Shown here: positions 1-42,077 of the stretch, one piece after another
Position numbering within the stretch: position 1 is the stretch's first letter
Layout of the letters: every line of letters begins with the position of its first letter
Assembly: GCA_023481285.1 (NCBI GenBank)
Contig: JAMCWL010000054.1
Coordinates: 1-54,881 of the forward strand
Source of the DNA: Actinomycetota bacterium
GTDB taxonomy: Bacteria > Actinomycetota > Aquicultoria > Aquicultorales > JAMCWL01
DNA: 54,881 bases
Reading direction: 5' to 3'
Program-made: the position numbers and the translations under genes
The notes under the pieces: model-generated
The model's database searches: none
What the model saw: only the letters and a program-made list of their open reading frames with translations
Told to the model about the DNA's origin: nothing

Positions 1-95
1 TGCCACAACTGTCCTCGGCCGTTCTTTATGCTGCATCATGAGCAATTCTGTTACCTTGGGTGAAAACATTAATATGGAAAAGGGCCAAACGTGAG

Positions 96-118
96 AGGGC
101 ACGCCATCGGCGTGCCCC
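96..118. repeat. Dispersed palindrome, copy 1 (GGCACGCC-ATC-GGCGTGCC)
   Basis: A near-perfect inverted repeat, GGGCACGCC-ATC-GGCGTGCCC, lies just downstream of the first NHL gene. The same core recurs near 50,066 and 53,260, always between genes. It could act as a transcription terminator for the minus-strand NHL gene, but there is no T-tract, so I class it as a dispersed repeat. The 147 bases at this edge hold nothing else I recognise. Confidence 0.7.
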
Positions 119-147
119 CTACGGATCAATAAAGATTTTAGCCGTCC

Positions 148-1281
148 CTAGCTGCCGGGGATGATCGACCTGGCATCGGCCGTGGCCTTGCTCGTTTGGA
201 GCCTACGCCAGATGATCGCCGCACAGACGGAGATGACGAGGGCGATGATAATCCAGAGGAACGCCGGGTTCCTGAGAAGTTCGCTCACGATATCCTCTCT
301 GATCATCGCGCCCTTGACGCCGGGGACATTGAGCTCGATGGTCTGCAGACGATCGTTGTACTTGTCGGCGATGGTGAAGGCTCGCCCTCCGGCGAAGGTC
401 ATACCGGCCGGGTAGTAGAACTGCCCTTCCTTCTGGCCCCACTCGCCGATCTCGATGAGCTTCTTGCCGTTCGTGTTATACGCGTAAATCGTCCCATTGA
501 AAGCATCGATCATGTAGAGTATCTCGTTGTCGTCGATGGTCAACCCCGACGGCAGGCCGAAGGTGCGGTTCGGGTCGTTCATCGTGGCGCCCTTTTTGCC
601 GACCGTCCAGAGGGGCTTCCCGTCGGGGTCGACGGCGACGAGGCGATTGTTGTTCGAGTCAGAGACGTAGATGTTGCCCTTCTTATCGGCGGCGATGCCG
701 CCGGGGAAGTCAAACTGGTTCGGCCCGCCGCCTCGCCTGCCGAACTTCTTAAGCTGGCGCCCTTTGAGGTCGTAGACGATGACGGGGCCGTAGGTCGCCG
801 CATAGAGCTTGTTGTTGGCTACCGTGAGGGCGGTCGGCATCATCACGTTTATCTCGCCGACTCTGCGCCCACCGGGGTCGACGATGAATATCTTGTTCTG
901 GACCTTGTCGGCGATGTAGACGTTCCCGTTGTCGGCGACCGCCACTCCAAGATAGCCCCGGAAGTTGTTCTTCTTCTTGGGATCGAGCCCGGGATCGAGC
1001 GTGGCTTTGAGCCGCCTGTTTCGATCAAAAACAAGAACTCGCTGTCGGCCGTCCGAGACGTAGATATCGCCATTCTTGTCGACCGCCACTCCGTGAGGTT
1101 TGCTAAGAAGTTTGTCGACCCTCTTGCCCGTTCCATAAAACGCCCAGACGAGCCGGGAGTTCTCAACGGAAGCCTGCTCGTTGCCGCCGACCGGCTGAGT
1201 GAGCGTAGAGTAGAGGTAGATGAGGGCGACGAGGGCGATTAGAAGTGTGATGATGCGCGCGATTAAAACTCTCTTACTCAT
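148..1281 (-). CDS. NHL-repeat beta-propeller protein with N- and C-terminal membrane segments
   Basis: The 377-residue product has an N-terminal hydrophobic segment (about residues 5-25), then about six NHL repeats of the pattern 'P.G(I/V)A.D..G.IYV.D..N.R(I/V)..(F/V)D', then a second hydrophobic helix near residues 345-365 followed by basic residues. Six NHL repeats normally close into a six-bladed propeller, so the picture is an extracytoplasmic propeller anchored at both ends. NHL propellers are protein- or ligand-binding scaffolds; the partner is unknown. It lies 18 bases downstream of a TPR gene on the same strand, and a paralogous propeller (2166-3143) precedes that. The association with multiheme cytochrome genes across the divergent promoter suggests a role in an envelope electron-transfer or carbohydrate assembly, which is inference. 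Confidence 0.85.
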   Translation of the reverse strand: MSKRVLIARIITLLIALVALIYLYSTLTQPVGGNEQASVENSRLVWAFYGTGKRVDKLLSKPHGVAVDKNGDIYVSDGRQRVLVFDRNRRLKATLDPGLDPKKKNNFRGYLGVAVADNGNVYIADKVQNKIFIVDPGGRRVGEINVMMPTALTVANNKLYAATYGPVIVYDLKGRQLKKFGRRGGGPNQFDFPGGIAADKKGNIYVSDSNNNRLVAVDPDGKPLWTVGKKGATMNDPNRTFGLPSGLTIDDNEILYMIDAFNGTIYAYNTNGKKLIEIGEWGQKEGQFYYPAGMTFAGGRAFTIADKYNDRLQTIELNVPGVKGAMIREDIVSELLRNPAFLWIIIALVISVCAAIIWRRLQTSKATADARSIIPGS

Positions 1282-1299
1282 GAATAACCCGCCTATCTC

Positions 1300-1971
1300 T
1301 TAGTTTCCGAGCCGCTCGATGGCGCTCTTGGCGTCCACCGATCCGGGATCGTACGCGAGTATTTTCTTATACTCGGCTTTAGCGAGCGACTTCTTTCCCT
1401 GTTTCTCATAGATCTGACCGACGAGATAATGAGCGTCAACCTCGGACGGGTCGACGTCCTGCACCTTCTTGGCGTACGTTAAAGCTTTCGAGTAATCGCC
1501 CTTGTCGTACCAGGCTTTGGCGAGTCCCATCAAGCCCACCGCATTGTTCGGCCAGACCTTGATGACCTCTTCCATGGTCTTGATGGCTTTGTCTCGCTCA
1601 CCCATCTCCTGATAGGTGAGGCCTACGGCAAGCTTGGCGTTGAGTACCTTGGGGTTGATCTTAAGCGCCTCCTTGAAAGCGGCCAGCGCTTCATTATACT
1701 CCTTAGCCTCCAGGTAAGCCCCACCCAGGCTCATACGCACTCGGATATCCTTCGGATTCTTCTTGGCCAGATCGGCGTAGAGCGCGATATCCCTTTCAAG
1801 TCTCGTCCGGGGCGCCTCCGTTCCCGAAAAGAGCGAATATGCGATAAACGCGACGGCGACGGCGACGGCTACGATTAATACCAAGTAGATGCGCTTGAGG
1901 GTTCTCTCCGCCGCATCAGGGGAGCCGCTCGCAATCTCTCCAGTTTCGACGATCTCTTCCAAAATGCTCAC
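1300..1971 (-). CDS. Membrane-anchored TPR protein
   Basis: 223 residues. One N-terminal transmembrane helix near residues 28-48 (LVLIVAVAVAVAFIAYSLF) is followed by about five tetratricopeptide units with the usual 'A..A....L...P....A...LG..Y...G....A' spacing. TPR arrays scaffold protein complexes; topology predicts the repeats outside the cytoplasm if the N-terminus is inside. It sits between two NHL-propeller genes on the same strand, which suggests an operon NHL-TPR-NHL (transcribed right to left) and a shared complex. No catalytic motif is visible. Confidence 0.85.
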   Translation of the reverse strand: MSILEEIVETGEIASGSPDAAERTLKRIYLVLIVAVAVAVAFIAYSLFSGTEAPRTRLERDIALYADLAKKNPKDIRVRMSLGGAYLEAKEYNEALAAFKEALKINPKVLNAKLAVGLTYQEMGERDKAIKTMEEVIKVWPNNAVGLMGLAKAWYDKGDYSKALTYAKKVQDVDPSEVDAHYLVGQIYEKQGKKSLAKAEYKKILAYDPGSVDAKSAIERLGN

Positions 1972-2165
1972 TTCCTATCCGTGGACCCGGAAGGCCCTTT
2001 GATCAACTACTAGATTCTACTCATAAGCCTCGCCGCTTTCAAGTTGACTTGTGCATTTTTTCGCAACCGGCGGCTACCTAAAATCCGACCAGACGACGAT
2101 CGACGACCGCCGCTTAAAGGCCTATGTTCTTCGTTGCTTTTATGGTGCCGAGCATGGCATGGCCA

Positions 2166-3143
2166 CTATTTAACCTGCCAGACGGCGATTCTGTTATTCT
2201 GCCGGTCGGCGATGAATGTCCCGCCGTTTTGATCGATCGTTATCCCGTTCGGATAGTAGAAGGCGTCAACCGCGTTCCCCTGCTCGCCGTAGGAGAAGAG
2301 CAAATTGCCGCTTGAGCTGAATACCAGGACCTTGTGGTTGAAGGCGTCGACCACATGGATCCTGCCCAAAGCGTCCACCGCGATGCCCCTCGGCAGCCAG
2401 GCGAGGCGTTTCGCGCCGGAATTGAAGGTCAGCTTATAACGTCCGTTCTTATCGAAGACCTGAACGCGCGCGTTATTCGAGTCGCTCACGTAGATATTGC
2501 CGGGTCGATCCGCCGCAATACCGTTTGGATAGGAGAACTCCCCTTCACCATGACCGGGACCGCCGAACCTCTTCACGAGCTGCCCGTTGGGATTGAAGAT
2601 CTTGACATCCTGGTCGCCGATGTCGGTCACGTATAAGCGATCATCGGTGACGAAGAGGCCCACCGGTTTATTAAGAGAGGCCGCCACGCCGAAGCCCTTC
2701 ATGAGCCCGTCAGGGAAGGCGTAGAGAAATTTGCCCTTCCGGTCATAGACCATTATTTTGTAGACCGATCCAACGGTTACCGTCACGTAAACCCTTTGCT
2801 TCCGGTCAGCCGCTACCATCATGGGATAGGCCGTCTCGACCTCCGGAACGGGCTTAAACGAGTCGATCGGCGTTCCATTGAGATCAAAAATGGCGATCTT
2901 CCTGTTGGCCGAGTCAGCGACGAAAACCCTATCCCCGACCCTGGCCCCGCCGAGGGGACCTTTAAGCGCGCTCTTCCCCACACCCGTAATCGAGTAGGAG
3001 TATTGGGGAACGACGTCCACCTGACCCGATGGCTTGGAATTGAAGGTTGCGTCCAGATATAAATAGGTAGCCACGCCCACGCCGGCGGAAAGGGCAACTA
3101 ACGACAGCAGCGACAGGAGTATGCGCTTACCGATCTTCGTCAC
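2166..3143 (-). CDS. NHL-repeat beta-propeller protein, membrane anchored
   Basis: 325 residues. One N-terminal hydrophobic anchor (about residues 9-30), then six NHL blades, for example 'FSYPNGIAADRPGNIYVSD' and 'FYYPNGITIDQNGGTFIAD'. It resembles the 377-residue NHL protein downstream but lacks the C-terminal membrane helix. The start is GTG at 3143, with a purine-rich GAGGA directly abutting it, an unusually short spacing; no better start is visible. About 190 bases of non-coding DNA separate it from the TPR gene. It is divergent from the 15-heme cytochrome gene, and the shared upstream region may serve both. No enzymatic function can be assigned. Confidence 0.83.
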   Translation of the reverse strand: MTKIGKRILLSLLSLVALSAGVGVATYLYLDATFNSKPSGQVDVVPQYSYSITGVGKSALKGPLGGARVGDRVFVADSANRKIAIFDLNGTPIDSFKPVPEVETAYPMMVAADRKQRVYVTVTVGSVYKIMVYDRKGKFLYAFPDGLMKGFGVAASLNKPVGLFVTDDRLYVTDIGDQDVKIFNPNGQLVKRFGGPGHGEGEFSYPNGIAADRPGNIYVSDSNNARVQVFDKNGRYKLTFNSGAKRLAWLPRGIAVDALGRIHVVDAFNHKVLVFSSSGNLLFSYGEQGNAVDAFYYPNGITIDQNGGTFIADRQNNRIAVWQVK

Positions 3144-3168
3144 TCCTCGATGATGCTCTACTGCTTGG

Positions 3169-3177
3169 ATGATAGCA
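3169..3177 (-). promoter_or_regulatory. Extended -10 element before the NHL gene
   Basis: On the minus strand the sequence TGC-TATCAT reads as an extended -10 box about 26 bases upstream of the GTG start at 3143. No good -35 hexamer is seen 17 bases further up, so it would depend on the TGn extension. This is a weak call. Confidence 0.3.
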
Positions 3178-3381
3178 CAAAGAAAAGCCAGCAGATGCAG
3201 AGGGGCGCCAGCCTGAAAGCCGCCCGGTTCTTCTCAGACCGAAAGCATCAAATGTTTTTTCAGAGTACACACAGGCTACCGGTTTTGGGTTTAAGAGACG
3301 AGCGACTCTCTCATTCCGAGAGCGAAAGCGCCTCATTACAAGCCATAAGGGGCACTTCGTGAAAAGTTTTGCTTAAGAAGA

Positions 3382-3410
3382 GGTTAAATTGTTACGATTT
3401 AACCTATAAT
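3382..3410 (+). promoter_or_regulatory. Promoter -10 with abutting 8-7-8 palindromic operator
   Basis: A perfect consensus -10 hexamer TATAAT (3405-3410) is directly preceded by an exact inverted repeat, GGTTAAAT-N7-ATTTAACC (3382-3404), that fills the spacer and the -35 position. No TTGACA-like -35 is present at 17 bases. This arrangement suggests a regulator-dependent promoter for the 15-heme cytochrome gene, either activated or repressed at the palindrome. The binding protein is unknown. Confidence 0.6.
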
Positions 3411-3421
3411 AGTGCTGGTGT

Positions 3422-3525
3422 TTATGCTTTGTGCATAAGCTTATCCATACCCTTATGCATGGCGGGTTGTGCGTTTTACCTGCTTACGCTAGTACTGATT
3501 CTGGCGAACGCATAAGCAGCCCGCC
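3422..3525 (+). promoter_or_regulatory. Structured 5' leader RNA of the 15-heme cytochrome gene (candidate)
   Basis: Between the -10 box and the GTG start lie about 230 untranslated bases. They contain a long hairpin: GGCGGGTTGTGCGTT (3461-3475) pairs with AACGCATAA plus CCCGCC (3507-3515 and 3520-3525), giving about 15 pairs with one G-U and a 4-base bulge, around a 31-base loop. Upstream, TTATGC (3422, 3453) and GCATAAGC (3433, 3510) each occur twice and can pair in alternative ways; CTGCTTA in the loop can also pair with TAAGCAG in the stem. I do not recognise a known riboswitch class. It may be an RNA switch or a cluster of protein sites. Confidence 0.4.
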
Positions 3526-3640
3526 GGTTAATAGGTATTAAAGGCGCTCGTCCAAGCATGAGCAGCGCTCGTAGCTGTTACTTGAGACCGGCAGGTGGAA
3601 GAGCGACGGTGGCTTCGGATGGAATTCGGCCAGGAGATCG

Positions 3641-5038
3641 GTGGTGGATAGGACCGAGCCCTCACGGGAAGAGGTAAAAGAGAAAGCTCGAGAGAGAAGA
3701 GGTGCGCGCGGTCGCATAGTTAAGAGTATCGCCCTCATTATCCTAATTCTCATCGTCCTCATAATCCCGCAGAGAGCGCAGAGATACGTCTGGTACGCGC
3801 AGAGCGTCGCCTGTCTCAGTTGCCACCCGCAGATGCAGGCGAAGTTCAGCGAGAAGAATGTCCACAATCCCTTCATGCTGCGACAGTGCACCACCTGTCA
3901 CAGGCAGCACGCCTCCGTTCCCGGGCGAGAGCGCAAAAGTGAGAACCGGAGCTTCTGGGGTCGCGCCGTTGAGAGGCTGCTTCCCGGCTTCGTCCGTGAA
4001 GACATCTGGAACTTGATCCTGGGGCTGCCGACGAGCACAAAAGTGAAAGGGGTCAAGTCGGTCCTTGGCACCAAGAACCCGACGAAGCCGCAGGAAGAGA
4101 CCTGCATGACGTGCCACCAGAAAATCGCCCGGCAGATGGGGAGAAAGTTCGCACACCCCCCTTTCAACGGAAAGAAGTGCTTGAGCTGCCACGACCCCCA
4201 CGCTTCAAATTTTACATCCATGACGCGCCGCAACTCGACCGAGCTTTGCTCGATGTGCCACCGGATGGACAAGGACAGGGCTCGGCGGTTTAAGCACCCC
4301 CCATTCGCCATAAATTCGTGCGCGAGCTGCCACACCGGACACGCTTCCGACTACTCTCGATTGCTTAAAGCGAGCCAAAAGGAGGTCTGTTTCACCTGCC
4401 ACAAGAGGATAGCGCCCCTCCTCTACATGCCCGTCCAGCATCCGCCATTTGAAAATGGGCAGTGCACGGGATGCCACCTGCCCCACGCATCCGACGCCAC
4501 CGTGCTTCTGATCGACAACATGCCCCAAGTCTGCTATCGCTGCCACTCGAAGACGGAGAGCGATTTTGACCGACCGTCAAAACATCCGGTTAGCAGCTTA
4601 TTCACCTGTGCGAGGTGCCACCGGCCTCATGCCGGCCAGGAACCATCGCTCCTTTTCGGACGGGGCAACGAGGTCTGCTATCGCTGTCATGAGAAGATAA
4701 GAGCGTCGTTCGAGGTGACCAAGCATTCGACCCTGCAATTCGAGCGGGGGCGCGGGGCGTGTCTTGGCTGCCACGCTTACCATGGATCAGTTTACAGACC
4801 GCTCCTGGCAAACGAGCCGGTAACAACCTGCTCCAGATGCCATACGGATAAGGCCAATAAGGTCATGCTCATAAACCACCCGGCCGGAGCCAATTACTAC
4901 GACGTTCGCCGGAAAGCACAGCTCACCTGCACCAGCACCTGCCACTGGGTCCACTACGTCCCCGAAAACGCCCTTTTGAAGTGGAAACCGGATGAACTCT
5001 GCTTGATCTGCCACGCCCAGATCGGCATCACCCGCTAA
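3641..5038 (+). CDS. 15-heme c-type cytochrome, membrane anchored (paired CXXCH repeats)
   Basis: 465 residues. A basic N-terminus is followed by a hydrophobic anchor near residues 23-42 (SIALIILILIVLIIPQ). Then come 14 CXXCH motifs and one CX3CH motif (CTSTCH), so up to 15 covalently bound hemes. Most occur in a repeated pair unit, 'C..CH...HPPF..G.C..CH..HAS', typical of doubled-CXXCH cytochromes that act as electron wires outside the membrane. GTG start at 3641 follows AGGAG with good spacing. The gene ends only 10 bases from the convergent 12-heme cytochrome gene. The long leader and palindromic operator upstream indicate controlled expression. Electron partner and donor are not shown by the sequence. 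Confidence 0.9.
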   Translation: MVDRTEPSREEVKEKARERRGARGRIVKSIALIILILIVLIIPQRAQRYVWYAQSVACLSCHPQMQAKFSEKNVHNPFMLRQCTTCHRQHASVPGRERKSENRSFWGRAVERLLPGFVREDIWNLILGLPTSTKVKGVKSVLGTKNPTKPQEETCMTCHQKIARQMGRKFAHPPFNGKKCLSCHDPHASNFTSMTRRNSTELCSMCHRMDKDRARRFKHPPFAINSCASCHTGHASDYSRLLKASQKEVCFTCHKRIAPLLYMPVQHPPFENGQCTGCHLPHASDATVLLIDNMPQVCYRCHSKTESDFDRPSKHPVSSLFTCARCHRPHAGQEPSLLFGRGNEVCYRCHEKIRASFEVTKHSTLQFERGRGACLGCHAYHGSVYRPLLANEPVTTCSRCHTDKANKVMLINHPAGANYYDVRRKAQLTCTSTCHWVHYVPENALLKWKPDELCLICHAQIGITR

Positions 5039-5048
5039 TACTCTTGCG

Positions 5049-6083
5049 CTATGGTGCTAAGGCACTAGCAGGTCCCTTGACGCTGGCGGGCCTTTCTCCT
5101 CTGACGTGGCAGTAAGCACAGTACGTCGGTCCGTGACACTCAAAGCAGGACTCCGCACCCTTCTCTTTCACCTGGGAGGGATGGAACTGTATCCAGGCGC
5201 CCTTGCCCGGATCGTAACCCTTATGATGGCAGGTCGAGCAGAAATCCTGCTGACGGTGGCACTTGGTGCAAGATGCGGGATTGGCTTTGCCGATGGCCGT
5301 ATGCTGCTTCGCGCCCTTCGTCCAGTTGTCGGCCGGATGGGGCATCTGCATACCGTGACAGTTCGAGCAGAAGGTCTCCTGGTGACACATCTGGCAGTTC
5401 TTACGCTCTTGTTTCGCCGCCTTGGAGTGCTCAGGAGGTAGCCAGTCCGCGCTTTTGTGGTTGACCGGTTTGAGATCGAAGTCTTTTGGATGGCAGGTGG
5501 AACATTTTCCGGGCGCTTTGGCCTTGGCGTCAAGGCCGTGGCAACGGTAGCAAGCACCCATCTTCATGAAATTCTTATACTCTTTCAGCCCGGGATGGGC
5601 CACCCTGTTATGACAGGTCGTGCAGTTGATCTCTTTTTTGATGTGTGCGACGTGGTTGATTATAATGCCGGTCGACGGTGTCGACCTGCGGTTCACCATC
5701 TTATGGCAGAGACCGCAGTTCTCGGAGCCGAGCTCTTCGGCGACCTTGCTCTCCTTATTGATCGGCTTTTCGTACCTGTCCGCTAAATGCAGGTACAACT
5801 CGGGCAGAGCCGCCATCTTGTGCTGGACAAAGCCGATGAGGTTCGGCGGAGTATGACAAGCGATGCAAGAGACATTCTTGTGGGCCGATTGCTGCCAGGA
5901 AGCGTGGTCCGCGCCCATCTCGTGACATAGCCCGCAAAAAACCGGCGTCGATGTCAGTGTGAGCGCCGACGCCGTCATGACGCCCAATATCGCCACCAGC
6001 ATGACGAGGAGGGTTACAGTTTTTCTTCTAAAGGCCTGGTCTTTGAAGAGAAGCAACAGGTTTTTCACGAAACGTTTTCCCAA
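5049..6083 (-). CDS. 12-heme NapC/NirT-like membrane cytochrome c
   Basis: 344 residues. One transmembrane helix near residues 22-42 is followed by 'STPVFCGLCHEM', matching the first heme site of NapC/NirT-type quinol-oxidising cytochromes. There are 12 CXXCH motifs in all, so the protein is far longer in heme count than the tetraheme NapC family and probably combines a quinol-docking N-terminus with an extended heme chain. It is convergent with the 15-heme gene and followed upstream by ccdA on the same strand. The likely role is passing electrons from the menaquinone pool to exterior heme proteins; this is inferred from family knowledge and context. Confidence 0.88.
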   Translation of the reverse strand: MGKRFVKNLLLLFKDQAFRRKTVTLLVMLVAILGVMTASALTLTSTPVFCGLCHEMGADHASWQQSAHKNVSCIACHTPPNLIGFVQHKMAALPELYLHLADRYEKPINKESKVAEELGSENCGLCHKMVNRRSTPSTGIIINHVAHIKKEINCTTCHNRVAHPGLKEYKNFMKMGACYRCHGLDAKAKAPGKCSTCHPKDFDLKPVNHKSADWLPPEHSKAAKQERKNCQMCHQETFCSNCHGMQMPHPADNWTKGAKQHTAIGKANPASCTKCHRQQDFCSTCHHKGYDPGKGAWIQFHPSQVKEKGAESCFECHGPTYCAYCHVRGERPASVKGPASALAP

Positions 6084-6151
6084 TATGTGATTCAGGGCAC
6101 TATCCCAATACTACCAAAAAACGCCACTTTTACAAGCTGGGAGCGATGGAG

Positions 6152-6847
6152 TTAATAAAGGATGAGTCTCTGGGCGAGAAATGAAAGCCTGGTAAGCTGT
6201 CCGCTCAGCATCAGGAGCCCCATGGCGATAAGAAAGAACCCGGCGGCACCGCTTACGATTCGCTTATGCCGACCGAACCATTGCAGAACACCGCGTGCCC
6301 GGGCGAAGAAGGCGCCGGCCAAAAGGAACGGGATGCCGAGCCCGGCGGCGTAGGAAGCGAGCAATATCCCGCCCCGTCCGGCCGTTTCACCCTGCGCGGC
6401 AAGCAGGAGTATCGAAGCGAGGATGGCCCCGACGCAAGGGGTCCACGCGACCGCAAACGCCATGCCCAACGGCAGCGCGCCGGCAAGTCCAAAACGGCGG
6501 TTGCCCGCGGACATGCCGGACCGGAAGAGAAACGGCAGGTCAATCGCACCGGCCAGCGAGAGCCCGAAGAGTATAATGAACACGCCGGCAATTCGCTCGA
6601 TTAGACGGCGATAGCCTATCAGAAATCCCCCGACGAGAGAGGCTGACGCCCCCATGGCTACGAAGACTACCGAAAAGCCCAGAACAAAAAGGGCGCTCGC
6701 CATAATGACGCGCGTCCTCTTCTCTTCCAGGGCGTCTACCGAAACGCCGGAGATAAAAGAGAGGTATCCGGGAATCAGCGGCAGCACGCATGGTGATAAG
6801 AAAGAGAGAAGGCCGGCCAAGAAAGCGGCTAAAATCAAAAGTATCAC
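6152..6847 (-). CDS. ccdA: Cytochrome c biogenesis protein CcdA
   Basis: 231 residues with six hydrophobic helices and the two family-defining cysteine motifs, 'LSPCVLPLIPGYLS' near the N-terminus and 'WTPCVGAIL' in the middle. CcdA carries reducing equivalents across the membrane to keep apocytochrome cysteines reduced before heme ligation. It lies 68 bases upstream of the 12-heme cytochrome gene on the same strand, so the two are probably co-transcribed and the genomic setting matches its function. No ResA, ResB or CcsA partner is inside the window. Confidence 0.93.
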   Translation of the reverse strand: MILLILAAFLAGLLSFLSPCVLPLIPGYLSFISGVSVDALEEKRTRVIMASALFVLGFSVVFVAMGASASLVGGFLIGYRRLIERIAGVFIILFGLSLAGAIDLPFLFRSGMSAGNRRFGLAGALPLGMAFAVAWTPCVGAILASILLLAAQGETAGRGGILLASYAAGLGIPFLLAGAFFARARGVLQWFGRHKRIVSGAAGFFLIAMGLLMLSGQLTRLSFLAQRLILY

Positions 6848-35007: not shown

Positions 35008-36927
35008 ATGAGCACTGTAATCGATGGAACGGAGCAGGTCCCGTCAATCCACGAATCGACCGTCGAGATGTACCGGCATGTGAGAGAGCGAGGCATCGAC
35101 AACGTTTTCGACCGCTATAAGGCCCAGCAGCCCCAGTGCAGCTTCGGCATCCAGGGTATCTGCTGTCAGCTATGCAGCCATGGGCCCTGCCGGATAACGC
35201 CCAAAGCGCCGGCCGGCATCTGCGGGGCTGGTCCGGACATGATAGCCGCCCGGAACCTTCTGAGGCTTGCCGTCCACGGCGCCTCCGCCTACTCACACCA
35301 CCTGGAGGAGACGGCGAAAACTCTTAAAGCGACCGCCGAGGGTAAAACGCCCTTCAAAATCCAGAACGAGGCCAAGCTGCGGGAGGTCGCCGACGTTCTA
35401 GGCCTGGGCGATAACGGAAGCGTGGAGGAGCTGGCGGTCGGCGTCTCCAACGCGGTCATCTCAGAGCTCAGAAAATCGGCGGATGAGCCCCTCGCCCTCG
35501 TCGAGCTTTTCGCACCGGAGAGCCGCCTGAAGGTCTGGAGATCGCTCGGTATCTTGCCGGGCGGCGTCCACTCCGAGGTGCGGGACGCCCTCGTCAAGAC
35601 GATGTCCAATGTGAACAGCGATCCGGTCGACCTCCTTCTTACCGCGCTCAGGGTAGGAATAGCAACCGGATACATGGGGCTTGTCGCTACGATTACGCTC
35701 CAGGACATCCTCTTTGGCGCCCCGCAGATCGTCGAGAGCCAAGCCGATCTTGGCGTCATCGATCCGGCTTACGTCAATATCGTGGCCCACGGCCACCTTC
35801 CCTTCGTCGGCACCGCAGTCCTGGCCGCTCTCGACAACGAGGAGTTCAACCAACTTGCGAAGGCGGCCGGTGCGGCCGGCATACGGGTTTACGGCTCCAT
35901 GTGTACCGGCCAGGAGCTGTTACAGCGCTCCGGAACCAGCGCCAAGGGTTTTGCCGGCCAGACGGGAAACTGGCTGAACCAGGAGTTTCTCGTCGCCACC
36001 GGCGCGGTCGACCTTATGATGCTCGACCTTAACTGCACGATTCCGGGGCTCAAAGACGTGGCGGCAAGATTCCACACCAGGCTGGTGCCGGTCAACAAGA
36101 TGGTGCGCCTTCCCGGAATTCCCGCCGGCAGGGATTATGAACCCGAGACGGTCGGCCAACTCGCGAGAGAGCTCCTCGAAGAGGCCATTGAGGCGTTCAA
36201 GGAGAGAAGCGGGGATATTCACATACCGCCTCACCGGGCGAGGATCGTGGCCGGTGCCGGCGTCGAGTCGATTCTTGGAGCGCTGGGAGGCTCCCTGGAG
36301 CCCCTCCTCGAAGCGATAAAGTCCGGACAAATCCGGGGGATCGCCGCCGTTGTCGGCTGCACGACCTGCCGCGACGTTCATGACCGGCCGAGCGTAACGA
36401 TAGCGAAAGAGCTAATAGCGAACGACGTCCTCGTCATCTCGGCTGGCTGCTCTTCCAGCGCGATGGCCACCGAAGCGCTGATGGACCCGGCGACGGCCGA
36501 CATTGCCGGCCCCGGCCTGGCGGCCGTCTGCAAATCACTCGGCATACCCCCCGTTCTAAACTTCGGCAGTTGCGTCGATATCGGCCGGATCGGTGTTGCC
36601 GTCAGCGCCATCGCCGCCGCCCTCGGCGTCGATCCGAGCGCCCTTCCGGTAGCGGCATCGGCGCCCGAGTACCTGGAGCAGAAAGCGGTCGCGGACGGTC
36701 TTTTCGCCGTCGCCTTCGGGCTTCTTCTTCACCTTTCACCTGCGCCGCCGGTGGCCGGCGCTCCACTCGTCGCCGAGATCCTCACCGGTGAGGTCGAAAA
36801 ACTTACCGGGGGCAAGGTTGCCATAGAGACAGATCCGATACAAGCAGCCGAGCTTATTCTGAAGCATTTAGAGGGCAAGCGAGCGGGACTCGGTCTTACC
36901 ACCAATCTTGAAAAGGAGATGGCTTGA
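35008..36927 (+). CDS. cooS: Anaerobic Ni-Fe CO dehydrogenase catalytic subunit CooS
   Basis: 639 residues, start after GGAGGG. N-terminal Cys cluster 'CSFGIQGICCQLCSHGPCRI' holds the B and D cluster ligands. C-cluster ligands are visible in 'VAHGHLPFVG' (His), 'GSMCTGQELL', 'DLNCTIPGL', 'VGCTTCRDV', 'ISAGCSSSAMATEAL' and 'NFGSCVDIGR'. It interconverts CO and CO2, delivering two electrons. No CooF ferredoxin, CooC nickel chaperone, acetyl-CoA synthase or hydrogenase is adjacent; instead a multiheme cytochrome overlaps its stop codon, suggesting an unusual electron acceptor. Confidence 0.96.
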   Translation: MSTVIDGTEQVPSIHESTVEMYRHVRERGIDNVFDRYKAQQPQCSFGIQGICCQLCSHGPCRITPKAPAGICGAGPDMIAARNLLRLAVHGASAYSHHLEETAKTLKATAEGKTPFKIQNEAKLREVADVLGLGDNGSVEELAVGVSNAVISELRKSADEPLALVELFAPESRLKVWRSLGILPGGVHSEVRDALVKTMSNVNSDPVDLLLTALRVGIATGYMGLVATITLQDILFGAPQIVESQADLGVIDPAYVNIVAHGHLPFVGTAVLAALDNEEFNQLAKAAGAAGIRVYGSMCTGQELLQRSGTSAKGFAGQTGNWLNQEFLVATGAVDLMMLDLNCTIPGLKDVAARFHTRLVPVNKMVRLPGIPAGRDYEPETVGQLARELLEEAIEAFKERSGDIHIPPHRARIVAGAGVESILGALGGSLEPLLEAIKSGQIRGIAAVVGCTTCRDVHDRPSVTIAKELIANDVLVISAGCSSSAMATEALMDPATADIAGPGLAAVCKSLGIPPVLNFGSCVDIGRIGVAVSAIAAALGVDPSALPVAASAPEYLEQKAVADGLFAVAFGLLLHLSPAPPVAGAPLVAEILTGEVEKLTGGKVAIETDPIQAAELILKHLEGKRAGLGLTTNLEKEMA

Positions 36928-37709
36928 GGCCTCTCTCCTCAAAAAGGGCGATGGTCTTAATAGCCCTCCTTTTCACGATAGCTTTTGCTGTGGTCGCCTG
37001 GGCATACTACTCCGGGGAGAAGAGGCCGCCCGTACCCAAGGGGGGTGATTCTCCCCAGGTGGGCTACTCCCCAAGCCCACTTGCCTCAACGGGCTCGCCC
37101 AATTCAACGGCGCCGAAGTTCAGTTGCAACGAGCCGTGTCACAGTAAAAACCAGGCGATCGTACGGATGCACGACGCGACAAGGCGCAAGGGCTGCATGA
37201 ATTGCCACCGCCCGGGTGAAAATCTGATCGGCGGAGGCGCCGCAAAATCTTCAGCGGAAGAGCTCGCCGGACGCAAGGCGAGCGATCCAAATTGCATCGA
37301 CTGCCATAAAACCGGCGGTCTTGCCAGCCAATCCGCGTCGGTCAAGGGCCGGATAGTCCCGGCAAAGAGGGTCGGCGGCTTGTTCTGCCCCAAATGCGCG
37401 GTCAGCATCAACCCGGCTGAAAACGCCGCTTGCGGTAAGTGCGGAGGCCGGATCACGCGGCTCAATGGCGGCTGGCGCTGCTCGATCTGCGGGCCACTGG
37501 TTGACGTCGACGAGATTGTCAAACTCTCCAGGGAAAAGCCGAGCAATGAGGTTTGTGCTCTATGTCATCGAAAAGACGACGAGCTCAAAGTCGAGCACAT
37601 CAAGGTCGCTTCCGGTGAGAATTGGGCCGACCAGATAACCAACTGCCTGGGTTGTCACAAGTCACACGATAAGTGCAGTGGATGCCACTTCGGACCCAAC
37701 AAGCAATAA
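36924..37709 (+). CDS. Membrane-anchored multiheme cytochrome c with zinc-ribbon-like insert
   Basis: 261 residues, TTG start overlapping the cooS stop (TTGA). One N-terminal transmembrane helix (about 8-28) places the rest outside the cytoplasm. There are five CXXCH motifs (CMNCH, CIDCH, CALCH, CLGCH, CSGCH) and one CX3CH (CNEPCH), so up to six hemes. Between hemes 3 and 4 lie six non-heme cysteines in CPKC, CGKC and CSIC pairs, which look like a zinc ribbon or rubredoxin-like module. Coupling to cooS argues that this cytochrome takes part in CO oxidation. How electrons would cross the membrane from cytoplasmic CooS is not explained by the two genes alone. Confidence 0.88.
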   Translation: MRPLSSKRAMVLIALLFTIAFAVVAWAYYSGEKRPPVPKGGDSPQVGYSPSPLASTGSPNSTAPKFSCNEPCHSKNQAIVRMHDATRRKGCMNCHRPGENLIGGGAAKSSAEELAGRKASDPNCIDCHKTGGLASQSASVKGRIVPAKRVGGLFCPKCAVSINPAENAACGKCGGRITRLNGGWRCSICGPLVDVDEIVKLSREKPSNEVCALCHRKDDELKVEHIKVASGENWADQITNCLGCHKSHDKCSGCHFGPNKQ

Positions 37710-38741: not shown

Positions 38742-41700
38742 ATGGCGGTCGCAAGTATCATCAAGCGAGATGGACGCTCGGTCCCGTTCAAACGAGATAA
38801 GATAGAGAGCGCTATCCTGAAGGCCTTGCGGGCGGTCGGAAGAGATGAACCCGCGCTCGCCAGCCGCCTCGCCGGCGAGGCGGTCGATGAGGTCGACCGT
38901 TACTTTACCGACGAGCGTCCCCCGCACGTGGAAGAGGTCCAGGACATCGTCGAGCGCACCCTTATAAAGGCTGACCTGCCCGGCGCTCCCGGTAAATATA
39001 TCATTTACCGGGAGCGCCGGGCGGACATCCGGGCTACGAAGAGATTTGTCGGGGTCGCGGACGACCTCAAGGTCGGCGTCAACGCGGCGAAAGTTTTGAA
39101 CCAGCGCTATCTGAAGAAGGATGAGTCAGGTCGCGTCGTCGAGACGCCATCCGAGATGTTTCACCGGGTGGCGAAAGCGCTTGCCGCACCAGATCAAAAG
39201 TACGACGAAAAGGCCGACATCAAATCAACCGAGGAAGCCTTCTACCGGATGATGGCCTCCTTCGATTTCCTGCCGAACTCCCCGACGCTGATGAATGCCG
39301 GCACCCCGCTCGGGCAACTCGCCGCCTGCTTCGTCATCCCGGTCGGAGATTCGATCACCGGGATCTTCGACGCCGTCAAATGGATGGCCCAGATCCACCA
39401 GACCGGGGGAGGCGTGGGCTATTCCTTTACGCGGCTCCGTCCGAAGGGAGATATCGTCCGGTCGACCAAGGGGATCGCTTCCGGACCCGTTTCGTTCATG
39501 CGCGTCTTCGACGTGGCGACCGACGTCATCAAGCAGGGCGGGCGGCGGCGGGGGGCGAACATGGGCATCCTCCGCTGCGATCATCCGGACATATTGGAAT
39601 TTGTAACGGCCAAGAGGCAGCCGGGTTTCCTTACCAATTTTAACGTCTCCGTCGCCGCGACCGATGAGTTCATGAAGAAAGCCGTCGAGGGTGGAGAAAT
39701 CGAGCTCGTAAACCCGAGGACCGGCGTCAAGGTTGGTAGATTGTCGGCCCCCTACCTATTTGACGTCATCGTCGCCTCCGCCTGGACGACCGGCGATCCC
39801 GGCCTCTTCTTCATCGACCGGACGAACGAGGCCAATCCCACTCCTAATATTGGGCAGTTTGAAAGCACAAACCCTTGCGTCGTTGGCTCGACGCGAATCG
39901 CGACATCAGATGGCCTCGTCACCATGGAAGAACTGTTTATATCAAAAGAATCACTTGCTGTGCTCACGAGAGTCGGTGGTACAAACGGCGCATCGGTAAG
40001 CACAGAGCAGAGAGTGCTTCCCGCGGTTCCAGTGTTTAAGACCGGTAGTAATCAACCGGTATACAGGGTGGAGACGAAGCATGGCTTCGAATTGACGGCG
40101 ACCGGTAATCACAGGTTCTTGACGCCGAACGGGTTTGTTGAACTCAAGGACTTGAAAATCGGCGATGAGCTGTACCTGCAGGCCGGGGAGGGTTTGTGGA
40201 GTGAGAAATACGATTTACCGCCGTTTTTACCGGAGCATCACACGGCGAAAGGTCGCTACGCAGCCGGTATTGGAAAAGGTAAAATACGACCGCCAGCCAG
40301 GTGGCCGAAAGAGTTGGGCCAGCTCTTAGGCTGGGCCGTCGGCGACGGATTTTTAACCCTCAACAGCGGCGCCATGGTCGCGTTCACATTCGGAGAAGCC
40401 GAGCGACATCTGCTCCCGCACTTCAGGAAGGTATTTGCCGATTGGTTTGGAGCGGCGGGTTATTTGCGCGAGCAGCGCGGGTCGATGCAGATGCGGTACA
40501 AGGGGTTCCCTGCAAGGTTCTTGGCTAATCTGGGTCTAGATACCGCCAAGTCTCATGAAAAGAAGGTGCCGGAATCCATATGGAGCGCGCCGAGAGAAGC
40601 TGTCGCCGGTTTTATGCAAGGACTTTTTACAACCGACGGTACGGTCAATCTAAGTGAAAAGAAAGGATCTTGCAGTATACGGCTTGCCAGCAGCTCGAAA
40701 GCGCTATTACAAGAGGTGCAATTGTTGCTGCTAAACTTCGGTATTATCTCAAGGCTGCATTTGCGCCGAGAACAAAGGGAAGCCTACCTACCCGGATCCG
40801 ATGGAGAGCCAAAGCGCACGAAGACACAGCCACAGTACGAGTTAATCATCGACAAAGCGAATCGGGATCGATTCATCGATCAAATAGGCTTTATGTCGGA
40901 CGCAAAGCAGGCGAAAGCCGAATCGTTCATTCGAGCGAAGAAGCGCAAGAGCAATCGCGAGACGTTTACGACAACCGTCGCATCCGTCGAGTTCGCGGGC
41001 TACGCCGATGTATACGATACGATGCAACCTTTTACCCACACCGTCATCTATAACGGCATCATAACGCACCAATGCGGTGAGGTCCCATTGCTGCCGTTCG
41101 AGTCGTGCAACCTGGGATCGATCAACCTCTCGAAGATGTTGACGCGCTGCCCGGACGGGACCCGCTGCACCATCGATTGGGAACACCTCAAAGAGACGGT
41201 GCACCTCTCCGTCCACTTTCTCGACAACGTCATCGACGCGAGTCTCTATCCCCTCACGCAGATCGACGAGATCACGAAGGCCAACCGCAAGATTGGCCTT
41301 GGGGTCATGGGCTTTGCCGAGATGCTTCTAAAGCTCGGTATAGCTTACGATTCCGAGGAGTCGGTTACAAAGGGTGAGGAGGTCATGGCCTTCATCTACG
41401 AGGAGGCCAAGAGAGCATCTGTGAAGCTAGCCGAGGCCAGAGGCTCCTTCCCAAACTTCAAGGGGAGCAAGTGGGAGAAGGCGGGGTATAAGAGAATGCG
41501 GAATGCGACCGTTACGACGATCGCTCCTACCGGCACCATCGGCATCATTGCCGGCACATCCAGCGGTATCGAGCCCATCTTCGCCATCTCCTACGCGCGC
41601 CAGGTGATGGAGGGCACAACGCTTCTCGAGACGAACGCCACCTTTGAAGAGGTCGCAAAGGCGAGGGGTTTCTCTAACCGCGAACTTATGCTTGAGATAG

Positions 41701-42077
41701 CCAAGACTGGTACCGTGAGGGATAGGGAAGATACCCCGGAGGACGTGCGCCGCCTCTTCGCGACGGCCTTTGACGTCGCGCCCGAGTGGCACGTGCAGAT
41801 CCAGGCGGTCTTCCAAAAGTACACCGACAATGCGGTCTCGAAAACGGTGAATTTGCCTCAGACGGCTACGATGGAAGATGTGCGACGAATCTATCTAATG
41901 GCTTACGAACTAGGATGCAAAGGAATAACGATCTACCGGTATGGCAGCAAACCGGAGCAGGTTCTTTACATCGGAACGCCGGAGGAGAAAAGAATCGTCG
42001 AGCAACCGGTGACGGCGACGAGCGAGTTCTCTGGCGGCTGTGCGTACGATTCAGAAACCAGAACCTGCCATTACTAG
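38742..42077 (+). CDS. nrdJ: Adenosylcobalamin-dependent (class II) ribonucleotide reductase with intein
   Basis: 1111 residues before splicing, 712 after. An N-terminal ATP-cone (about 1-95) is followed by the reductase barrel: 'PNSPTLMNAGTPLGQLAACF', 'GGVGYSFTRLRPKGD', 'NMGILRCDHPD', the active-site 'NPC|GE' with 'FESCNLGSINL', and 'APTGTIGIIAGTSSGIEP'. A 399-residue intein interrupts it at Cys379, within the conserved NPCGE loop. The C-terminus ends 'GGCAYDSETRTCHY', a short cysteine tail that may regenerate the active site. It reduces ribonucleotides without needing oxygen, as expected of an anaerobe. TAGGAGGT ribosome site. Confidence 0.95.
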   Translation: MAVASIIKRDGRSVPFKRDKIESAILKALRAVGRDEPALASRLAGEAVDEVDRYFTDERPPHVEEVQDIVERTLIKADLPGAPGKYIIYRERRADIRATKRFVGVADDLKVGVNAAKVLNQRYLKKDESGRVVETPSEMFHRVAKALAAPDQKYDEKADIKSTEEAFYRMMASFDFLPNSPTLMNAGTPLGQLAACFVIPVGDSITGIFDAVKWMAQIHQTGGGVGYSFTRLRPKGDIVRSTKGIASGPVSFMRVFDVATDVIKQGGRRRGANMGILRCDHPDILEFVTAKRQPGFLTNFNVSVAATDEFMKKAVEGGEIELVNPRTGVKVGRLSAPYLFDVIVASAWTTGDPGLFFIDRTNEANPTPNIGQFESTNPCVVGSTRIATSDGLVTMEELFISKESLAVLTRVGGTNGASVSTEQRVLPAVPVFKTGSNQPVYRVETKHGFELTATGNHRFLTPNGFVELKDLKIGDELYLQAGEGLWSEKYDLPPFLPEHHTAKGRYAAGIGKGKIRPPARWPKELGQLLGWAVGDGFLTLNSGAMVAFTFGEAERHLLPHFRKVFADWFGAAGYLREQRGSMQMRYKGFPARFLANLGLDTAKSHEKKVPESIWSAPREAVAGFMQGLFTTDGTVNLSEKKGSCSIRLASSSKALLQEVQLLLLNFGIISRLHLRREQREAYLPGSDGEPKRTKTQPQYELIIDKANRDRFIDQIGFMSDAKQAKAESFIRAKKRKSNRETFTTTVASVEFAGYADVYDTMQPFTHTVIYNGIITHQCGEVPLLPFESCNLGSINLSKMLTRCPDGTRCTIDWEHLKETVHLSVHFLDNVIDASLYPLTQIDEITKANRKIGLGVMGFAEMLLKLGIAYDSEESVTKGEEVMAFIYEEAKRASVKLAEARGSFPNFKGSKWEKAGYKRMRNATVTTIAPTGTIGIIAGTSSGIEPIFAISYARQVMEGTTLLETNATFEEVAKARGFSNRELMLEIAKTGTVRDREDTPEDVRRLFATAFDVAPEWHVQIQAVFQKYTDNAVSKTVNLPQTATMEDVRRIYLMAYELGCKGITIYRYGSKPEQVLYIGTPEEKRIVEQPVTATSEFSGGCAYDSETRTCHY
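39876..41072 (+). mobile_element. Intein with LAGLIDADG homing endonuclease in nrdJ
   Basis: Residues 379-777 of the nrdJ product. Splicing block A begins at Cys 'CVVGSTRIATSDG', block B has 'TGNHRFLTPNG', and block F/G ends '..YDTMQPFTH...YNGIITHQ' directly before the +1 Cys of the host (CGEVPLLPF). Two dodecapeptide motifs, 'LLGWAVGDGFL' and 'FMQGLFTTDGTVN', each keep the metal-binding Asp, so the homing endonuclease may be active. The last residue is Gln rather than the usual Asn. Removing the intein restores a continuous NPCGE motif. Base composition is slightly more A/T-rich than the host gene. Confidence 0.93.

Follow-up and report, generated by a model that had tools for sequence, protein, structure and literature searches.

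A putative extracellular electron transfer module of multiheme cytochromes, NHL propellers and TPR proteins, and its rearranged copy at a contig end

Genes and features of the locus

The window, by which we mean the whole stretch of DNA analysed (54,881 nt, contig C20 of its genome), carries at one end six genes for cytochromes and envelope proteins, together with two non-coding features:

1 to 99, no strand: end part of an IS-like element, also present where contigs C39 and C58 begin
148 to 1281, minus strand: NHL1, a six-bladed NHL propeller with N- and C-terminal transmembrane helices (Pfam NHL, 5.5e-24)
1300 to 1971, minus strand: TPR protein with a single N-terminal transmembrane anchor (Pfam TPR_19, 2.6e-24)
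2166 to 3143, minus strand: NHL2, a second NHL propeller with an N-terminal anchor (Pfam NHL, 3.1e-24)
3381 to 3405, no strand: near-perfect palindrome, AGGTTAAATTGT-T-ACGATTTAACCT, between the divergent genes for NHL2 and CYT15
3641 to 5038, plus strand: CYT15, a membrane-anchored 15-heme cytochrome, MtrA/DmsE-like
5049 to 6083, minus strand: CYT12, a 12-heme cytochrome with an N-terminal NapC/NirT (NrfH-like) domain and transmembrane anchor
6152 to 6847, minus strand: CcdA-type thiol-disulfide transporter of cytochrome c maturation (DsbD_TM, Pfam 1.6e-20)

All six genes are open frames at the positions proposed in an earlier sequence-only reading, and all matched the expected Pfam families. 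The proposed orientation holds as well: the trio of NHL1, TPR protein and NHL2 is divergent from CYT15, while CYT15 and CYT12 are convergent, so the window does not contain a single operon. The gap between the TPR gene and NHL1 is 18 bp; the genes for CcdA and CYT12 are 68 bp apart and are likely co-transcribed. Membrane anchoring was also borne out, with an N-terminal hydrophobic helix in NHL1, NHL2, the TPR protein, CYT15 and CYT12, and a C-terminal one in addition in NHL1.

NHL1 forms the extreme end of the contig, adjoining the IS-like copy, which breaks the contig there; the three copies, each at a contig end, agree in 96-99 bases. The window holds a rearranged and truncated form of a conserved gene set, beside an IS at a contig end. 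No hexaheme cytochrome gene was found on the window contig, though relatives have one adjoining NHL; in this genome the hexaheme genes lie on other contigs. The palindrome is a candidate operator at most. It was rejected as a regulon marker, being the sole occurrence in the genome when up to 2 mismatches are allowed, and it does not match the Rex consensus.

Cytochromes, propellers and envelope type

The heme counts originally proposed for the two cytochromes were confirmed. CYT12 has 12 CXXCH motifs, and CYT15 has 14 CXXCH plus one CX3CH, which we regard as a genuine heme motif because its position is occupied in 15/15 aligned relatives, mostly by CX3CH and in three by the canonical CXXCH. 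Besides the proximal histidines (15 in CYT15, 12 in CYT12) there are 14 further histidines in CYT15 and 13 in CYT12, enough for near-complete bis-His ligation.

CYT15 combines paired CXXCH repeats with MtrA-like sequence similarity: it matches TIGR01905 at 2.1e-61 and the MtrA structure 6r2q_A at 8.7e-17 as a single protein and 4e-28 as a family profile, and this MtrA-type match supports its predicted role as an electron conduit. It nevertheless falls outside MtrA/DmsE in the strict sense, since it has 15 hemes rather than being a decaheme protein, scores 165.8 bits (1.2e-48) against the curated DmsE model with its cut-off of 192.2, and has no MtrB porin partner. For CYT12, a transmembrane helix near the N terminus is followed by a tetraheme NapC/NirT domain (PF03264, 1.4e-17, residues 24-164), as is usual for proteins of the NapC/NirT type; a match to the NrfH structure 2j7a (1.9e-08) and a CGLCHEM motif are also present. 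Judged by its sequence, CYT12 is a predicted quinol dehydrogenase, and its earlier placement on the quinol side is supported. Its scores against the curated models, 68.6 bits for TIGR03153 (cut-off 134.2) and 27.9 for TIGR02161 (cut-off 310.6), are below the cut-offs, and we therefore call it NapC-like, not NrfH. ResB and CcsA are encoded on contig C35 of the same genome.

The six-bladed propeller fold was checked for NHL1, whose AlphaFold model (pLDDT 79.5) has NHL domains as its best PDB folds, namely those of Thin, TRIM2/3/71 and Brat, with TM-scores to the target mostly of 0.75-0.85. Both the propeller and the TPR domain are predicted to lie on the exoplasmic side. NHL2 has a 64% identical paralogue in the same gene order on contig C98, where a second copy of the whole NHL trio is accompanied by a hexaheme gene. 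Assignment of the NHL and TPR proteins to PEP-CTERM or scytonemin families was rejected, the scores being far below the curated cut-offs.

Neither Omp85 nor MtrB_PioB (PF11854) was found in 36 genomes of the class, from which we conclude that the envelope is probably monoderm. On the same result an outer-membrane conduit was rejected.

Conserved neighbourhood and the hexaheme partner

The NHL and TPR genes of relatives do not lie far from cytochrome genes, an arrangement that would have spoken against a single unit. Among 24 related genomes carrying the 15-heme gene, NHL is found within 8 kb of CYT15 in 19 and TPR in 21, and Rex lies within the same distance in 17. The usual order, mostly co-directional, is CYT12-Rex-(PQQ-propeller, Wzy-TPR)-TPR-CYT15-NHL-hexaheme, with the TPR gene adjoining the 15-heme gene. 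This conserved order supports the proposal that the genes act as one functional unit. The set named by the sequence-only reading stands as such a unit but is incomplete, lacking the secreted hexaheme cytochrome, Rex, the Wzy-TPR protein and the PQQ-propeller membrane protein, and its arrangement in the window is not the conserved one. Rex itself is not in the window; in the clusters of relatives it was confirmed by PF06971 and PF02629 in one protein (the L025 and L110 proteins). As a check on the phylum, WhiB was looked for and not found in the class.

The linkage counts rule out a chance neighbourhood. A relative of NHL1 lies no more than 1.5 kb from the 15-heme gene in 10/17 genomes, against 0.09 expected, and in the other genomes of the class NHL1 has its best relatives (42-46%) in those NHL genes that neighbour the 15-heme gene. 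In the class as a whole, a hexaheme-like cytochrome lies within 1.5 kb of 40 of the 74 NHL1 relatives, about 50 times the chance figure of 0.77; each of these 40 pairs is same-stranded, and the cytochrome is downstream in 39. Another 16 of the 74, several of them at contig ends, lack both a hexaheme-like gene within 10 kb and a CYT15 gene within 5 kb. Conversely, CYT15 occurs without NHL in four genomes of the class (family f4), in one of which a Big_5 Ig-like protein takes the place of NHL, and it is absent altogether from the order-level relatives (f2).

The profile of the hexaheme partner finds OmcE (1.9e-07) and OmcS (1.8e-05), which form nanowires (PDB 7tfs, 6ef8), among its best PDB sequences; this match may be driven largely by the CXXCH motifs. 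A single hexaheme sequence gave no match against the PDB, and the AlphaFold model, with a pLDDT of 29, is too poor to use.

Electron path, alternatives and kindred systems

Taken together, we consider it fairly probable (roughly 0.6) that the window genes are a copy of a monoderm extracellular electron transfer module, conserved across the class, that exports respiratory electrons. CYT12 would oxidise menaquinol via its NrfH/NapC-type membrane domain and relay the electrons over its 12 hemes to CYT15, a membrane-tethered MtrA/DmsE-type protein that would take them across the cell wall without an MtrB porin. The secreted hexaheme cytochrome would then pass them to an extracellular acceptor, be it a mineral, a partner cell or humics. 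Anchored on the outside of the membrane, the TPR protein and the NHL propellers may hold or assemble the cytochromes, possibly in one physical complex, and CcdA would provide reductant for heme attachment.

The same chain might run inward, drawing electrons from extracellular donors such as Fe(II) minerals or partner cells into the quinone pool. MtoA-like homologues are reported in Dethiobacter, an iron oxidiser as well as reducer, in one study (PMC10376724), and the window genome encodes a CO dehydrogenase next to a multiheme protein, compatible with autotrophy. Sequence fixes neither direction, but quinol oxidation is the usual role of NrfH/NapC-type proteins, and we consider inward flow unlikely. 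It is less likely still that the proteins are an exoplasmic hub delivering electrons to a soluble acceptor, as in DMSO/TMAO-, sulfite- or nitrite-type respiration, rather than to solid acceptors. The closest full-length curated models include DmsE for CYT15, and for CYT12 the closest is NrfH, but neither the multiheme region of the window nor the clusters of relatives contain a recognisable gene for a terminal reductase; what recurs there instead are secreted hexaheme cytochromes and cytochromes with 5 to 33 hemes. Finally, NHL, TPR and Wzy-TPR might be a set for polysaccharide or glycoprotein export that merely lies near cytochromes, given that NHL resembles ScyF and TPR the PEP-CTERM TPR family, both weakly and far below cut-off, and that Wzy_C domains are present in the clusters of relatives. 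The NHL-hexaheme adjacency, same-stranded throughout, and the joint duplication of the NHL trio with a hexaheme gene make this very improbable.

The suggestion that no such system had been described was only partly right, since kindred sets are known, among them those of iron-reducing Gram-positive bacteria. The Gram-positive Dethiobacter alkaliphilus has extracellular electron transfer clusters (1-Fe-T, 2-Fe-T, 3-Fe-T, 2-Fe) in which, from the cluster descriptions, NHL and TPR proteins accompany MtrA-like and CymA-like multihemes, the same combination as in our probably monoderm class; the clusters were linked to growth on ferrihydrite, several multihemes being induced on it, and the authors suggest that NHL/TPR aid secretion and assembly (PMC10376724). 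Dethiobacter belongs to a separate class, Dethiobacteria, and the available text of that paper does not mention the fixed NHL-hexaheme pair, Rex or Wzy-TPR. The Parvivirga hydrogeniphila cluster MCL4079323-32, with an MtrA homologue, a quinol-oxidising multiheme, cytochrome c biogenesis and a Rex-type regulator, is in gene content much like relatives G156, G186 and G205, but NHL/TPR are not mentioned for it (PMC9686372). In Desulfuromonadales and ANME partners an operon encodes a six-bladed propeller with 16-heme and 26-heme cytochromes and a PPIase; the propeller beside large multihemes is shared, but the hosts are diderm, the proteins lack transmembrane helices, and the four-gene core has no TPR or NapC-type protein (PMC5539420). 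Compared with MtrCAB/DmsE of Shewanella, CYT15 is related to MtrA/DmsE and CYT12 would take the part of CymA, but there are 10 hemes there against 15 and a membrane tether in CYT15, and the class is without an MtrB-type porin. We found no literature on Aquicultor with multihemes.

A bolder version, which we hold to be unlikely, is that the hexaheme cytochrome polymerises outside the cell and has the NHL propeller as its dedicated partner at the surface, serving in assembly, as a cap or as an anchor. TPR, NHL, the 15-heme protein and Wzy-TPR would then be what monoderms have in place of the Gram-negative porin-cytochrome route: a nanowire machine that crosses the wall, may be glycosylated and is so far undescribed. 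How electrons pass the wall in monoderms without outer-membrane porin-cytochrome complexes is still poorly known, and the conserved order defines a small testable set of CYT12, CYT15, TPR, NHL and hexaheme. Within it, the linkage suggests that NHL and the hexaheme are a fixed pair in this class, which has received little study, and gives genetic and structural work on cultivable relatives a clear target.

Layout of the window genes and their two cytochromes

The six reading frames proposed from the sequence alone stand at their coordinates, each matching the expected Pfam family:

148-1281, minus strand: NHL1, membrane-anchored NHL propeller
1300-1971, minus strand: TPR, tetratricopeptide protein
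2166-3143, minus strand: NHL2, membrane-anchored NHL propeller
3641-5038, plus strand: CYT15, membrane-anchored 15-heme cytochrome
5049-6083, minus strand: CYT12, 12-heme cytochrome, predicted quinol dehydrogenase
6152-6847, minus strand: CcdA, thiol-disulfide transporter

NHL1 and TPR are separated by 18 bp, and CYT12 lies 68 bp downstream of ccdA, so that each of these pairs probably shares a transcript; 194 bp lie between NHL2 and TPR. The NHL1 model is an NHL propeller with a TM helix at each end, and its closest solved folds are NHL domains. The window set is a rearranged copy of the module found in relatives: its two cytochrome genes converge, its NHL trio points away from CYT15, and NHL1 lies at the contig edge, which an IS-like repeat forms. 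An identical IS-like end (96-99 bases) is shared by window 1-130 and the starts of contigs C39 (L060) and C58 (L050), abutting a different hairpin at each of the three sites, as if terminator hairpins were targeted. Between the divergent NHL2 and CYT15 is a 25-bp near-perfect palindrome (3381-3405) that occurs once in the genome.

CYT12 has 12 CXXCH motifs and an N-terminal TM helix, and Pfam places a NapC/NirT domain in it (1.4e-17). Among solved structures it is strongly related only to NrfH, a quinol dehydrogenase (1.9e-08). It scores under the curated cut-offs of both NrfH and NapC, and is thus NapC-like and not a strict member of either family. CYT15 carries 14 CXXCH motifs and one CX3CH; this last site is filled in all 15 aligned relatives, in three by a canonical CXXCH, so 15 hemes is the correct count. 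It matches MtrA (6r2q_A, from what we take to be the MtrCAB structure, although the database file labels the entry otherwise) at 8.7e-17 as a single sequence and 4e-28 as a family profile, and DmsE at 1.2e-48, yet with 165.8 bits, below the cut-off of 192.2. Unlike MtrA and DmsE it is tethered to the membrane, and its heme number differs. Neither MtrB_PioB nor Omp85 was found in the 36 genomes of the class, so CYT15 cannot use an outer-membrane porin.

The module in relatives

CYT15 is present in 17 of 36 genomes of the class and in 7 further genomes among 397 sampled from the phylum (24 in total). The usual order, mostly co-directional, is CYT12-Rex-(PQQ propeller with TM helices-Wzy_C/TPR)-TPR-CYT15-NHL-hexaheme, the last being a secreted six-heme cytochrome. 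Within 8 kb of CYT15 we find NHL in 19/24, TPR in 21/24 and Rex in 17/24, which are lower bounds given a simple custom gene caller and fragmented assemblies; several of the loci lacking a partner are on short contigs. The sequence-only reading would have been refuted by relatives whose NHL and TPR genes lay far from any cytochrome gene, which is thus not what most relatives show. For the class, NHL counts are 11/17 (≤5 kb, stricter NHL1 threshold) versus 12/17 (≤8 kb). Four genomes of family f4 have CYT15 without NHL, one with a Big_5 protein in its place. Rex in the relatives' clusters was identified by both of its Pfam domains. No WhiB was found in the class.

A hexaheme-like gene lies within 1.5 kb of 40 of the 74 NHL1 relatives in the class, where genome sizes and copy numbers predict 0.77. 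All 40 pairs are on the same strand, with the cytochrome downstream in 39. OmcE (1.9e-07) and OmcS (1.8e-05) are among the top PDB matches of the hexaheme profile, but the single sequence tried against the PDB matched neither and the structural model was unusable, which leaves a nanowire possible but no more than that. A hexaheme domain of this same family also forms the C-terminal part of a fusion protein on contig C39 (L060:3321-5915, minus strand), together with a GEVED domain and a Matrixin-like metalloprotease bearing the HExxHxxGxxH motif.

Proposed electron path and precedents

Most likely, CYT12 would oxidise menaquinol and pass electrons to the membrane-tethered CYT15; from there they would cross the wall, reach the secreted hexaheme protein and end on an acceptor outside the cell. 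We infer this path and its direction, together with a scaffold role in which the membrane-anchored, outward-facing TPR and NHL proteins would hold the cytochromes in place or assemble them. Through Rex, relatives would couple expression to NADH/NAD balance, and their Wzy_C proteins might glycosylate surface components. The main alternative, electron uptake, we consider unlikely.

This kind of gene set is already known. One report describes clusters of the Gram-positive iron reducer Dethiobacter alkaliphilus that encode MtrA-like and CymA-like multihemes with NHL- and TPR-repeat proteins; several of these multihemes increase on ferrihydrite, and its authors already propose assembly help by NHL/TPR (PMC10376724). 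In Parvivirga, genes for cytochrome biogenesis and a Rex-type regulator are clustered with an MtrA homologue and a multiheme that oxidises quinol (PMC9686372), an arrangement resembling that of relatives G156, G186 and G205. In Desulfuromonadales and ANME partners, cytochromes of 16 and 26 hemes are found with a six-bladed propeller (PMC5539420). Our literature search found no earlier description of the class-wide fixed gene order or the close NHL-hexaheme pairing.

Other multiheme loci of the genome

The module is distributed over at least four loci, the window being one. Contig C98 has a full NHL2-TPR-NHL1 paralogue (64, 54 and 59% identical, respectively), followed by an assembly gap and a hexaheme gene; C41 has TPR-NHL-hexaheme flanked by four NapC-like genes of 11-12 hemes, and C73 a Wzy-TPR, a CYT12 paralogue and Rex. 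C42 (L048), with genes for 7-heme, 20-heme, TPR, 502-residue NHL and 6-heme proteins, is possibly a further variant. On contig C35, a TPR gene, ResB and CcsA neighbour the gene of a 2180-residue protein (L047:4659-11198, minus strand), which has MtrC/MtrF-like domains and 15 CXXCH motifs.

Window positions 35008-37709 hold a CO dehydrogenase gene (Prismane/CODH family) and, sharing 4 bases with it, the gene of a membrane-anchored protein that has zinc-ribbon-like cysteines and 5 CXXCH motifs. It sits in a place that a ferredoxin gene might have been expected to fill; electrons from CO might feed a heme chain. A ribonucleotide reductase at 38742-42077 contains an in-frame LAGLIDADG intein.
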